Origin: a virus
Strand: one strand, 5' to 3'
IMG/VR virus record: IMGVR_UViG_3300025093_000037
Coordinates: 1-47,019 of that record
Length of the DNA stretch: 47,019 bases
Shown: positions 9,470-27,947 of the stretch, one piece after another
Layout of the letters: every line of letters starts with the position of its first letter
Numbering within the stretch: the first letter of the stretch is position 1
Made by a program: the position numbers and the translations under genes
Notes under the pieces: model-generated
Told to the model about the DNA's origin: nothing
Seen by the model: only the letters and a program-made list of their open reading frames with translations
Database searches by the model: none

Positions 9470-9515
9470 GCTTAACTAGATGCGATCATGTAGGTCGATG
9501 CCGAGGAGGGCGTCC

Positions 9516-10760
9516 ATGACCATTAACTTCTCTTTCCCCGGCACTTGCGGAACCGATGCCGGGCCGAACTCTGACGGCGTCCTTGTCGGCTCTCTCGCAG
9601 AGTCGGCGATCGCAACGGCGCTTCTTGAATCCCGTGCGGGCAGCTCGCTTGTCATCACCGATGACGGCGGGCTCTACGTCAATGAAACGACCCCGGCCAA
9701 CGAAGCAACGGCCGACGACGTCGAGATCGTCGGAGCCACCCTGGCCGCCAACGATGCGATCTATTTCGGCGCTTCGGCCGAGTTCACCGAGATCCTCATC
9801 AACATCACGACCCAGGGCGACTACACGGACCCGGTATGGGCGTGGGAGTACTGGAACGGAACGGCATGGACGGCCGTAGCGAACCTCGTTGACGGCACCA
9901 GCTTCTGGGAGGCCGCAGCAGGAACGGTTCAGGTCAGCTACGACGCCCCGACCGACTGGGCTCAGAACACCGTCGACAACGTTCTCGCCTACTGGGTGCG
10001 GGCCAACTGCACGTCGGTCACAGCGACCGTTACACAGTGCCTCATCGGCCAGGTGTGGATCGTCGGAGCGACCCCCGCTTTCACGAACGACACGGTCGAC
10101 ATCAACGACGCTGACGTCGGCGACGTCGATGCGCTCCCGGCTACCGCAGCTCTCAACGACGCCTTCTACTACGGCATGGGAGAGAAGTTCTGCAAGCTGA
10201 AGATCACGACATCGCAGGCCCGCACCGGCACGGCGACTCTCACCTGGGAGTACTGGAACGGCTCCGCATGGGCCGCTCTCGCCACCGTCGAAGACAAGTC
10301 GGACGGCTACGCTGCGACGGCCGGAACCCACATGGTTTCGTTCGCCCCGCCCAGCGACTGGGCGGCCAACACCGCAGCCAACGGCCCTGACGGCGAAGCC
10401 GGGTTCTTTGTGCGGTCCCGCCTGTCGGCGTTCACTTCGGTGACTCAGCAGCCGCTCATCACCCAGGCGTTCGCTTTCCCTGTCAGCACCGGAGCGGTCG
10501 GCGTGCCCCGCAACGTCGGCGGTCAGGTCACTGACGTGACTTGCGACGCCATCACTGTTTCAGGCGCTAACAACGACAGCGTGTTCCTTCTGATCAATGC
10601 CGACACGGGCGCTTCGGAAGAGTTCACCTGGACCCAGGCGACCAAGACCGTGGCGAGTGCCATGAGCATCTTCAACTCTCCAGGCGCTTCCTATGTTGTC
10701 GCCCAGATCGTTGAAGACGGCACGACTGAATTTGCTTCGGTGTCGTTCTACGTCCGATAG
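9516..10760 (+). CDS. Phage structural-like protein with duplicated beta-sandwich domain
   Basis: 414 residues. ATG 9516 follows AGGAGGG; the longer frame from 9480 lacks a site. Two similar domains follow each other, at about 72-180 and 210-318. Each has the series 'ND-A-(I/F)-Y-(F/Y)-G', 'W-E-Y-W-N-G-(T/S)-A-W', 'A-G-T...V-S', 'P-(T/S)-D-W-A', then a VR strand. The pattern is typical of virion surface or baseplate beta-sandwich domains. A C-terminal Ig-like stretch follows (ITVSGANNDSVFLLINADTG). Its stop touches the terL start (TAGATG). A decoration or fibre role is likely but not proven. Confidence 0.65.
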   Translation: MTINFSFPGTCGTDAGPNSDGVLVGSLAESAIATALLESRAGSSLVITDDGGLYVNETTPANEATADDVEIVGATLAANDAIYFGASAEFTEILINITTQGDYTDPVWAWEYWNGTAWTAVANLVDGTSFWEAAAGTVQVSYDAPTDWAQNTVDNVLAYWVRANCTSVTATVTQCLIGQVWIVGATPAFTNDTVDINDADVGDVDALPATAALNDAFYYGMGEKFCKLKITTSQARTGTATLTWEYWNGSAWAALATVEDKSDGYAATAGTHMVSFAPPSDWAANTAANGPDGEAGFFVRSRLSAFTSVTQQPLITQAFAFPVSTGAVGVPRNVGGQVTDVTCDAITVSGANNDSVFLLINADTGASEEFTWTQATKTVASAMSIFNSPGASYVVAQIVEDGTTEFASVSFYVR

Positions 10761-12335
10761 ATGACAGCGGTTCAAGTCGATAGCGGGCTGTACCTGCCCG
10801 ACGGTCGCCTTGACTTGGAAGCCGCAAGAGCGCATGGCGAATTTCTCCTTGGGTTGATGAAGGAAGCTTCGTCACCCGAGGAGATCGCCGCTGTCCAGGC
10901 CGCTATCCGAAAGCACGCCCATGTGGTGGCGTTCGATTCTCCAGCTCGGCTGGCTGAAGCGACCGACCCGGAGTGGCAGTCAGCGCCTCATCTGGAGCTG
11001 ATCAGCGACACGATCCGGCGGTCGTTGACCGAACGCGTGACGGCCATCATCGAGGTGCCGGTCCGTCACGGGAAGAGCGAACTGATCAGCGCTCACGGAC
11101 CTGCCTGGTATTTAGAGAATGTTCCGAACGGCAAGGTCATCAGCCTCAGCCACTCGCTTTCCCTTGCGGAGGAATGGGGGCAGCGGAATCGCGACCTGAT
11201 CGAAGACAACCCAGATCTGTTCTGGGCTGCTCAGGTCCGGTCAGACAGTCGCCGGATTCAGCAATGGAAGACAACTGCGGGTGGCGTGATGATCAGCGTC
11301 GGCGCTCGGGGATCGATCACTGGTAAGGGTGCCAACCTGATGCTGGTAGACGACCCCGTGAAAGACGCTGAGCAGGCGTTCAGCCCTGCCTATCGGGAGA
11401 AGTTCCGGCGATGGTGGCAGATGACGATCCGTACCCGCATGCAGCGAGGGGGGTCGATCGTGATCGTGCAGGCTCGTTGGTGCGAGGATGATCTGGCTGG
11501 CTGGCTGCAAGAGCATGCGGCTGAGAATCGGTTCGCTACCCAGTGGGAAGTGATCAGTCTCCCTGCTTTGGCTGAGCCTGGGCCTGAAGAAGCTGAGGCT
11601 GATGGTTTCGATCCGCGAAAGTGGCGGGACCCTGTCGGTCGGAAGATCGGCGATCCGTTGTGGCCTGAGATGTGGAGTGCTGACGAGCTAGAGGTGGCTA
11701 AGGCTGACGTCGGCCGGTTGGCTTGGCGGGCGCTCTATCAGCAGAAGCCAGTTGATGCTGAAGGGACGTTGTTCCCTGTTGAATCGTGGACGTACGTCGA
11801 TTCGACCAAGGTCCCGTCGCTCGTGTCGATTATCCGCAAGTGGGACCTTGCTGCGACGATGGACGAGAGTTCTGACCCTGACTGGACGTGTGGCGTCTTG
11901 TTTGGGAGGGACATCCAGGGGTTCAGTTACGTTCTGGATGTGGTGCGGTTTCGGCAGGGTCCGGCGGCGACTGACCGGATGATTGCTGCGACGGCGAAGC
12001 GGGACGGGCTTCAAGTGCCTATCAGCTTTGATCAGGATCCGGGTTCGGCTGGTAAGCGAGATGCTGCTTATTTGGCTCGTGAGGTCGTCCCTGGGCACAC
12101 TGTGAGCTTCGAACCGCCACGGGGTAAGAAGATGGCTCGGGGGTTTGCTGGTCAGGTGCAGCTTGGGAATGTGCGTCTGGTGAGGGCTGGTTGGAATTAT
12201 GAGTTCGTGACTGAGCATTCAAAGTTTCCGGGTGGGCGTCACGATGACATGGTGGATGCCGCTGCTGCAGCGTTTGCGAACACTGTCGATGGGCTTGCTG
12301 TGGGTGGGGCGGTCGGCAGCTCGGTTCGCAGCTGA
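10761..12335 (+). CDS. terL: Terminase large subunit
   Basis: 524 residues; the ATP-driven motor and nuclease that packages DNA into the prohead through the portal. Walker A is VPVRHGKSE (G104-K105-S106), Walker B LMLVDD (D197-D198). The C-terminal RNase H-like nuclease shows RKWDLAAT (D362), FDQDPGSAGK (D424/D426) and GRHDDMVDA (D495/D496) as the acidic metal-binding set. Length is normal for the family. It begins directly after the previous stop, with no ribosome site of its own. No adjacent plus-strand terS is recognised. It is followed by the structured RNA region. Confidence 0.95.
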   Translation: MTAVQVDSGLYLPDGRLDLEAARAHGEFLLGLMKEASSPEEIAAVQAAIRKHAHVVAFDSPARLAEATDPEWQSAPHLELISDTIRRSLTERVTAIIEVPVRHGKSELISAHGPAWYLENVPNGKVISLSHSLSLAEEWGQRNRDLIEDNPDLFWAAQVRSDSRRIQQWKTTAGGVMISVGARGSITGKGANLMLVDDPVKDAEQAFSPAYREKFRRWWQMTIRTRMQRGGSIVIVQARWCEDDLAGWLQEHAAENRFATQWEVISLPALAEPGPEEAEADGFDPRKWRDPVGRKIGDPLWPEMWSADELEVAKADVGRLAWRALYQQKPVDAEGTLFPVESWTYVDSTKVPSLVSIIRKWDLAATMDESSDPDWTCGVLFGRDIQGFSYVLDVVRFRQGPAATDRMIAATAKRDGLQVPISFDQDPGSAGKRDAAYLAREVVPGHTVSFEPPRGKKMARGFAGQVQLGNVRLVRAGWNYEFVTEHSKFPGGRHDDMVDAAAAAFANTVDGLAVGGAVGSSVRS

Positions 12336-12364
12336 TGCCCAATTTGGGGGAACTTGCACCGGGT

Positions 12365-12391
12365 GGGAACATACCGGGCGCTGCGGTGTTG
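12365..12391 (+). promoter_or_regulatory. Sigma-R-like promoter for the structured RNA
   Basis: GGGAAC (12365-12370), 17 bases, GTTG (12388-12391), 30 bases after the terL stop. It lacks the spaced GCACC-N5-GGTG form but retains GGTGTTG, and GCACCGGGTG lies just upstream at 12356-12365. Expected start of transcription is about 12398. Confidence 0.55.
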
Positions 12392-12397
12392 TACCAA

Positions 12398-13324
12398 GTG
12401 ACTGCGGGGGCCCGGCCCCCGGGGCGGCGCTCCGTGCGCCTCCCGGCCGCCGGTCCGTAGTCCACAAGAAGCCCTTCGGGCCCCGAGCGTCCGCTTCGGC
12501 GGGTGCAAGGAGTGAGGCCAGAGGTGCCGGTAGGAGTCCGGCAGCGAGGGGTGGACATGAGATCGAGGGATCGGGTGAGCGCCGAGTGCGTGAGCCCGAC
12601 ACCACGACCCACGGTGCGCACCAAGGCGATTGAGCCTGGCGCTCCGTCGACCGCCTAGGGCACCGACCGGCTGACGCCGCGTTCTGACACCGGGGGCACC
12701 AAAGAGTCGACGGCTAGAGCGTCAGCAGCCGAGCGGACACCAACGGTCAGGTGTGATCGGCAGACTCGCCGCTCACCCGATTCCTCGACAGAGATCGATC
12801 CCCGGCGATCCGGGGATCGAGGATCGACCGCTCATCGAGCAACCCGCTGTCGTGATAGCGGCGGGCCAGCCGTAAGCGTCGAAGGAGATCCCATTCGGGC
12901 CACTGGCAACTGGTAAGACCAAGCAGCGCCGACGACGCAATCCGAGCACTGCTTCATCACGGGTGAGCGGTCGATCCATCGATCTCAGGAGGTAGTGCCC
13001 TGCTCCCCGCTCCGGGCTCGGAGAACCGAGCGCCGTAGAAGCCGGACAGGGTCGGGGCCCAAGAGGCCACCGCCAAACCGAGGGTGCCAATCCCACCACC
13101 TCCATTGATCGGCGTTGCAGGGCGTGGCTGCCCTGATGGCTGAGGTGAAAGGTCAGCACGGGTCCGGCCGACCCAGGAAGGCGAAAGCCGACGCAAGTTG
13201 AAGTTCGCCCGAACCTCTCAGCCCCCGCTTGAAAGGGGGAGTCCCAGGGCCCAAACAGGGACTCGCATCGGGCTTGATCAAGACAAGAAGAGACCCGCTC
13301 CCCGGGAAAGGAGCGGGTCTCTTT
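12398..13324 (+). ncRNA. Large structured noncoding RNA, GOLLD/ROOL-like in character
   Basis: About 930 bases with no credible protein gene but many helices, between a sigma-R-like promoter and a strong terminator. Local hairpins: 12426-12430/12436-12440; UUCG-capped 12491-12494/12499-12502; 12525-12530/12538-12543; an 11-bp stem 12795-12805/12810-12820; 12844-12850/12855-12861; 13016-13021/13026-13031 nested in 13011-13015/13042-13046 and 12998-13002/13047-13051; 13118-13123/13130-13135 nested in 13097-13102/13142-13147; 13160-13164/13170-13174; GAAA-capped 13180-13182/13187-13189; 13239-13245/13258-13264. A long-range helix joins 12821-12834 to 12964-12977 (14 perfect pairs). 12876-12881/12933-12938 crosses 12921-12926/12949-12954, a pseudoknot if both form. 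Size, complexity and phage location recall GOLLD and ROOL RNAs; the class cannot be fixed by eye. Confidence 0.72.
13288..13324 (+). terminator. Strong intrinsic terminator of the structured RNA
   Basis: A perfect 14-bp stem (13288-13301 with 13310-13323) around CCGGGAAA. The 3' arm ends CTCTTT, a short U-tract. It closes the structured RNA region. Confidence 0.85.
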
Positions 13325-13336
13325 GGCATGTTGGTA

Positions 13337-13362
13337 GGCCAGCCCCCTTGGAAAGGCTGGTC
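13337..13362 (-). terminator. Hairpin between convergent transcripts
   Basis: GGCCAGCC (13337-13344) pairs with GGCTGGTC (13355-13362), one G-U pair, ten-base loop. It lies just beyond the stop of the minus-strand secreted protein gene and may terminate it; no clear U-tract on the minus strand. Confidence 0.45.
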
Positions 13363-13374
13363 TCACAACTGTAG

Positions 13375-13893
13375 TCAACCAGTGAACGCCGGAACGGGAG
13401 CCGCCACAGGGGCAGGAGTCGCTGTAGGCACCGGGGTCGCCGTAGGCACCGGCACCACATACATCACCGTCTGGCACAGACCAGTCTCGATGTCGCCATT
13501 CGTGTACCGGGTGTAGCAACTAATGACCGGACGATCCGAATCGTACGGAGCGACTGGAACAGCCTTCTCATGCCCAACGAACAAACAATGCGTATCGCGC
13601 AGCGGCGGCCACGGACCGATCGTCTCGTTGTACGACAGGTCGCTTGAAGTCCGAAACACGGCGCTGGGCTTCAAGCCAACCGGACACCGCCACCGCTCGC
13701 CGGTCTCAATGCACTCAGGACCATCTGCTCCATGAAGCTCAGTGCATTGCGGAGGCGAGATGTGAACATCAAAGGTGTTCTGCGCTGGCTGCTCCGACAA
13801 GGGAGGCGGCTCTGGCGTCTGAGCGACAGCGTTGCTGACGCCGACGGCCAGAAGCGCAACGCTCAGCGCTGAAAGAATCATGGACTTAATCAT
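13375..13893 (-). CDS. Secreted Cys-rich protein with signal peptide
   Basis: 172 residues on the minus strand. ATG at 13891-13893 follows AAGGAG; the frame stays open far upstream, but that part overlaps the divergent plus-strand gene and is nonsense. Residues 1-24 (MIKSMILSALSVALLAVGVS...) are a clear Sec signal peptide with an AVA cleavage site. The mature part begins QTPEPPP and has several Cys pairs that could form disulphides. It ends in a Pro/Ala/Thr/Val repeat (PVPTATPVPTATPAPVAAP). It stands alone on the strand opposite the structural genes. A cell-envelope role such as host alteration or exclusion is plausible; function is unknown. Confidence 0.75.
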   Translation of the reverse strand: MIKSMILSALSVALLAVGVSNAVAQTPEPPPLSEQPAQNTFDVHISPPQCTELHGADGPECIETGERWRCPVGLKPSAVFRTSSDLSYNETIGPWPPLRDTHCLFVGHEKAVPVAPYDSDRPVISCYTRYTNGDIETGLCQTVMYVVPVPTATPVPTATPAPVAAPVPAFTG

Positions 13894-13957: not shown

Positions 13958-14383
13958 ATGGTACGAAATGGCGCTGGCAGCTCCATCCGAAACGATCTTG
14001 AGCAAAGCCCCGCCGGACCCAACGAAGTTCGCGTGCAAGACATCACTGTCGACGTGTACGACAAGAACCAGGGCTGCGCTTGGGAAGAGACCCTGGGCGG
14101 TGTAAGCCATCGGTGCAGTGGCCCCCCGGACTGGAAATACAACCACCGCTGGTGGTGCCTGACCCACATCGACCAGAAGCTTTGCTGCGGATCGCGATTG
14201 AGCAACTCTCAACGCCGATCGATCCTGACCAACCCCAAGCGCAACCATTGGCTCGCCAGGCAACGGCATCTCGCTGGCAAAGAGCAGACAGCAATCGACG
14301 AGTTCGAAACTCAATTCCCCAGCACAATCAATGACCCAGAGGAGCACACATTCTCATGGCGCGAATACCAGGCGAGGCAATGA
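13958..14383 (+). CDS. Protein of unknown function, 141 residues
   Basis: ATG 13958 follows AAGGTGG; an in-frame GTG at 13949 is also possible. Contains CAWEETLGGVSHRC, WWCLTHIDQKLCC (a Cys/His cluster that could bind zinc) and a helical basic stretch (RNHWLARQRHLAGKEQTAID). First gene of the head operon, overlapping the next by four bases. It may be an HNH-like or zinc-binding packaging accessory, but no HNH signature is complete. Confidence 0.65.
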   Translation: MVRNGAGSSIRNDLEQSPAGPNEVRVQDITVDVYDKNQGCAWEETLGGVSHRCSGPPDWKYNHRWWCLTHIDQKLCCGSRLSNSQRRSILTNPKRNHWLARQRHLAGKEQTAIDEFETQFPSTINDPEEHTFSWREYQARQ

Positions 14384-27592: not shown

Positions 27593-27795
27593 GCCATCAG
27601 GTCGAGATAACTGAAGTCGAGTACATGCAGGTTGGGGACGCCTTCTGGTACGGCAAGGAATTGTTCACAATTCAAAGAATTCTTCCTCCGCAACCGGGTT
27701 GACTTCGGAACCTGATTACGTTCGACGTGATCGAACGTCCGCGACATGTGAGCTTCTCCAAGAAGGCAAGAGTCGCTAAAGCGTTGGATGCTTGA
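27589..27795 (+). pseudogene. Small SH3-like gene with in-frame TGA (interrupted or read through)
   Basis: ATG 27589 overlaps the upstream stop. After 37 codons (VGDAFWYGKELFTIQRIL) there is a TGA at 27700-27702. The same frame continues with 30 coding-like codons (NLITFDVIERPRHVSFSKKA) to TGA at 27793-27795. Together the two parts have the layout of the small 'GD...itF...V' SH3-like phage proteins that often sit near capsid genes. Either a point mutation broke the gene, or the TGA-C stop is sometimes read through. A recoded genetic code is unlikely, because TGA ends most other genes here. Confidence 0.55.
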
Positions 27796-27812
27796 AACAA
27801 CGTTTAGTTAAT

Positions 27813-27918
27813 GGTTACCCTTCTGGGTAATCGCCACCTCGCTCCTTGCGGACAGGGGTCGTTAGACCAAGGGTCTGCGACCAGGCTCACAGAGCAATAA
27901 AGTTCCGTTAACGGAACT
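27813..27918 (+). promoter_or_regulatory. Structured leader upstream of the major capsid gene
   Basis: Three hairpins fill the 152-base gap before the capsid gene: 27813-27820/27825-27832 (loop TTCT); a two-part helix 27857-27861/27878-27882 enclosing 27864-27868/27872-27876; and 27901-27907/27912-27918 (loop TTAA), followed by ATTTAAA. Together they may be a processing site, an mRNA stabiliser, or a partial terminator separating early head genes from the highly expressed capsid gene. No clear promoter was found. Confidence 0.55.
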
Positions 27919-27947
27919 ATTTAAACCTGAATCGCGAGGAGCGAACA

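Follow-up and report, generated by a model that had tools for sequence, protein, structure and literature searches.

A candidate large structured non-coding RNA beside the terminase gene of a phage genome

Among the large RNAs encoded by phages, GOLLD forms a 14-mer RNA nanocage and is often located near tRNA islands, and ROOL is built from stems P1-P19, including pseudoknots, the solved ROOL measuring 659 nt (PMC12286853, from which the definitions of both families used here were taken). Abundant phage ncRNAs of 0.6-1.2 kb that belong to no family are also already known (PMC7567579, PMC9241854): phage ICP1, which has no tRNAs, makes an intergenic ncRNA of about 800 nt seen by RNA-seq (PMC7567579), and RNA-seq likewise showed lnc001 and lnc002 of phage K to be large non-coding transcripts from gene-free gaps (PMC9241854). 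Beside these giant phage RNAs, the candidate described here would be a further molecule for structural comparison.

The candidate (Table 1) lies in a virus record of 47,019 bases, analysed over its whole length and hereafter called the window, between terL and a convergent gene; the portal, head and tail genes on the + strand begin beyond the latter, at 14356. The 1,039 bases separating the two genes (window 12336-13374) lack a coding signal in every frame, with codon log-odds over 12340-13389 of at most 0.04 in all six frames as against 0.23-0.55 in the phage's confident genes, and the open frames that cross them match nothing in Pfam. This bears out the initial annotation, which saw no credible protein gene here and named a conserved protein frame as what would speak against an RNA; judged by this one sequence, no frame carries a coding signal. 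The locus shares with large structured phage ncRNAs a non-coding, gene-free gap within the range of about 0.5-1.2 kb.

The phage itself is isolated, the nearest other TerL in a TerL profile search being about 40% identical. A second record, IMGVR_UViG_3300006790_000001 (65,561 bases), shows 99.97% identity over the parts compared. Its beginning carries on from the end of the window, the two sharing a 123-base overlap (window 38075-38197/G001:C1 start), and when joined these near-identical records point to a genome of about 65.4 kb that is circular or permuted. Just before terL, window 9480-10757 holds a 426-amino-acid gene with a weak match to an HNH-endonuclease PHROG (1.7e-4) and none in Pfam. 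The word GATC occurs 412 times in the whole window (8.8 per kb), above the expectation from base composition, and GTAA and TAAG are rare, which together may point to the host.

Table 1. Features of the locus, in window coordinates; the ends of the candidate RNA are inferred.
Feature	Position	Strand	Evidence
terL, terminase large subunit gene, upstream of the candidate RNA	10761-12335	+	phrog_38, 3.5e-78
Putative sigma-R/ECF-like promoter, GGGAAC-N17-GTT	12365-12390	+	exact match, weak evidence
Candidate large structured ncRNA, about 929 nt	12396-13324	+	non-coding, fold z, long-range stems
5' stem-loop of stacked nested helices	12400-12462	+	pair probability 0.92-1.0; z -3.2 for 12395-12465
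Core-closing long-range helix	12471-12497 (5' arm)/13038-13067 (3' arm)	+	pair probability 0.85-0.95
8-bp hairpin, cUUCGg loop, tandem G-U/U-G in stem	12487-12506	+	sequence
Structured core	12558-12987	+	z -8.1 on +, -5.9 on -
Strongest stem, 25 nt	12563-12587 (5' arm)/12764-12788 (3' arm)	+	23 Watson-Crick pairs, one G-U
Perfect 11-bp hairpin	12795-12820	+	
16-bp long-range helix	12821-12836 (5' arm)/12962-12977 (3' arm)	+	pair probability 0.99
14-bp terminator-like hairpin at the boundary between RNA and convergent gene	13288-13323	+	stem 13288-13301/13310-13323
Convergent gene of about 157 aa whose start resembles a signal peptide; matches no family	13375-13848	-	

Does this non-coding stretch fold better than its composition would dictate? 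On the + strand, positions 12365-13324 reach -488 kcal/mol, compared with -432 in shuffles (z -8.0; the - strand gives z -4.9), which is the deepest fold among 49 + strand windows of 960 bases. The 200-base windows inside the same region are ordinary, with no outliers, so the excess must lie in long-range pairs. The best of these, the 25-nt stem, was matched in one of 3000 dinucleotide shuffles (Gumbel tail about 2e-4) and equalled in none of 138 other 960-base windows of the contig. Since structure beyond chance is concentrated in 12558-12987, the 3' quarter (13070-13286) folds at chance level (z -0.4), and z drops to -4.6 (+) and -4.1 (-) once the terminator is removed, it is the core and the terminator that carry the observation. 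Hence, of the structured RNA of about 930 bases that the initial annotation had proposed, the absence of a gene and complementarity beyond chance hold up; structure throughout does not, and the - strand folds well too. Although the core and the lobe at 12790-12987 have somewhat more favourable z values on the + strand, the strand preference is modest, and the stems show no excess of G-U over A-C (15 vs 17, a strand-neutral count). Any inverted repeat would fold well on both strands, and because the - strand here also folds far beyond its shuffles, we infer, rather than observe, that an RNA and not a DNA repeat is involved.

The anatomy of the core is best described by its helices. The 25-nt stem, whose arms are 176 nt apart, had escaped the initial annotation; the fold model assigns a pair probability above 0.9 to 12564-12587/12764-12787, and likewise to 12478-12486/13052-13060 in the outer helix. 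Several elements that had been listed earlier are indeed present, namely the 11-bp hairpin, the UUCG-capped hairpin and the perfect 14-base helix 12821-12834/12964-12977, which extends to 16 pairs. A GAAA-capped hairpin can be found at 13180-13189, albeit with only three pairs and in a place where the fold model prefers other pairing. The UUCG-capped hairpin would form in competition with the outer long-range helix. In a model no more than 2 kcal/mol from the fold optimum, the core could be drawn as a four-way junction, composed of the closing helix 12558-12566/12979-12987, the arms 12567-12587/12764-12784 and 12821-12836/12962-12977, and the hairpin 12795-12820.

At its 5' end, the candidate would start near 12396 if the promoter-like sequence, which sits just before the first stable helix, were used. 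The sigma-R-like promoter claimed previously does match its pattern exactly; nevertheless, near-matches are common in the window, and the promoter is therefore weak evidence. The 14-bp stem of the claimed terminator is present as well, but the T-tract following it on the + strand is weak, and a terminator scanner detects the terminator on the - strand alone; the hairpin probably serves both strands. Its location at the far end of the RNA, before a convergent gene, implies that the candidate does not serve as leader to a gene downstream, and the stand-alone position between terL and this hairpin argues against a cis leader. Elsewhere in the window, the major head protein gene has a 245-nt leader (27703-27947) whose MFE and centroid structures coincide (z -7.0) and which matches neither Rfam nor any phage; the gene's Shine-Dalgarno sequence GAGGAG is covered by the 13-bp outer helix of this leader (27839-27851/27932-27944), as it would be in an RBS-sequestering leader.

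Rfam 15 returned nothing at gathering cut-offs. With the filters relaxed and E values up to 10 allowed, the region gave only weak - strand hits, the best of which, ncr1175, was dismissed as a sub-threshold match covering two tandem terminator-like hairpins. The covariance models of GOLLD (RF02032, conserved 3' region) and ROOL (RF03087), a comparison that the initial annotation had proposed, found no match in the region either at E up to 10 or in targeted searches, the latter having no positive control because the control genomes also fell below the cut-off. The 47-kb window contains no tRNA, nor does it place the candidate near a tRNA island as is frequent for GOLLD; the 65-kb relative record has one tRNA-Thr candidate, elsewhere in the record. 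Membership in GOLLD or ROOL, as suggested earlier, is consequently not supported. A tRNA or tmRNA identity was rejected, none being found in the window, as was a group I or II intron, for which no Rfam intron model matched and RF01998 gave just a weak hit elsewhere.

Homologues from related phages, by which covariation was to be judged, were sought widely, and the sole other copy of the RNA region, that in the second record, is identical in sequence. No homologue was found by blastn among 50,697 phage records or plasmids, in IMG/VR via TerL, portal and capsid protein, by TerL search in genomes, in about 700 Chloroflexota and Pseudomonadota genomes, or by nhmmer and blastn at 80 further loci reached with the TerL profile (Rfam, run on 18 of these, gave no match either). 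Four 16-mers searched in IMG/VR and a 17-mer searched in genomes produced hits that all stop at or near the pattern; the most suggestive of them (L197) lies inside a coding ORF. A separate 43-base match, in G007, falls within an apparent sigma-factor gene. A single-sequence covariance model of 12790-12987, applied to 99 sources together with 24 virus records, gave as its best hit outside this phage 48 bases in L155 (E 0.007), taken as chance. Among low-GC TerL relatives, five (L060, L062, L069, L081 and L084) have 0.8-1.4 kb without a 90-aa ORF just upstream of terL; these gaps, which have no Rfam match, may hold small genes or another RNA.

What else, then, could the locus be? The main rival is that the inverted repeats act as DNA, be it as a replication, packaging (pac/cos) or protein-binding site, or as what is left of a small inverted-repeat mobile element such as a MITE, here 226 bp long and bounded by arms of 25 nt. 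Folding well beyond chance on both strands, the proximity of terL, and a 10-mer, CGGGTGAGCG, that occurs three times in the core in both orientations with no other exact copy in the window are all what such a role would predict, yet no target-site duplication is evident in the sequence at the 25-nt arms, the window has no second copy, and the nested stems differ in length and sequence, unlike a single inverted repeat. GATC, the repeated word that stands out most, is frequent all over the phage, and its clustering was therefore rejected as a special feature of the core. On balance, we hold a DNA-level role to be unlikely. It is less probable still that the region is GC-rich non-coding filler with an ordinary two-way terminator, its stems due to chance or recent local duplications: the unremarkable 200-nt windows would suit such filler, as would the low z of several coding windows in this GC-rich phage, but the rarity of the best long-range stem would not, and phages seldom retain as much as a kilobase of DNA that has no use. 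Finally, a true GOLLD or ROOL member that diverged beyond the reach of the Rfam models and still builds the same nanocage would fit in length and phage setting; with no model match and no tRNA nearby, we consider this very improbable.

Taken together, a kilobase without coding signal, long-range complementarity that chance would seldom produce and a hairpin terminator at its far end make a large structured ncRNA the best reading, specifically a stand-alone phage ncRNA of about 930 nt on the + strand, with a long-range-helix core and closed by the terminator hairpin. We favour this reading with some reserve, having counted against it the want of a homologue, the - strand z of the core, the missing G-U excess, the 3' quarter and the weak promoter; as there are no relatives for covariation, we put the chance of a structured RNA only somewhat above even and have little confidence in any function. 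Transcription would run on the + strand, in the model proposed here, from just after terL to the terminator hairpin; the middle of the RNA would fold into a multi-helix junction held by long-range helices of 16 to 25 nt, and a further such helix to 13038-13067 would close the core. By analogy with the abundant ncRNAs of GOLLD, ROOL, ICP1 and phage K, our guess is that a stable, abundant RNA might be made during infection and might act as a scaffold or particle, not as an antisense regulator. Could it stand for a class of its own among large ornate phage RNAs, related to neither GOLLD nor ROOL, built on a four-way-junction core and perhaps able to self-assemble into particles? This is conceivable but doubtful, and a new class cannot be claimed since no homologue was found.

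How, then, does the candidate compare with the known systems? It departs from GOLLD in lacking a covariance-model match, a tRNA in the window and a known multimer, and resembles it in being phage-encoded, non-coding, about 0.8-0.9 kb long and predicted to fold intricately. From ROOL it differs by its length (about 930 nt vs 659 nt for the solved RNA), the failure of the model to match and the absence of a nearby tRNA, whereas both are large phage ncRNAs with long-range helices, predicted ones in the present case. Probably, it is an orphan large phage ncRNA of no described family, perhaps working in a GOLLD/ROOL-like manner. If so, an independent RNA beside a packaging gene, with no tRNAs nearby, would suggest more than one origin of such RNAs among unrelated phages, within the limits of a claim drawn from a single sequence without relatives. 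The ncRNA of ICP1 and lnc001/lnc002 of phage K were shown by RNA-seq, whereas the candidate is known from sequence and matched none of the phage records searched; what it has in common with them is large size, a gene-free gap and no assigned family and, with ICP1, a setting without tRNAs.
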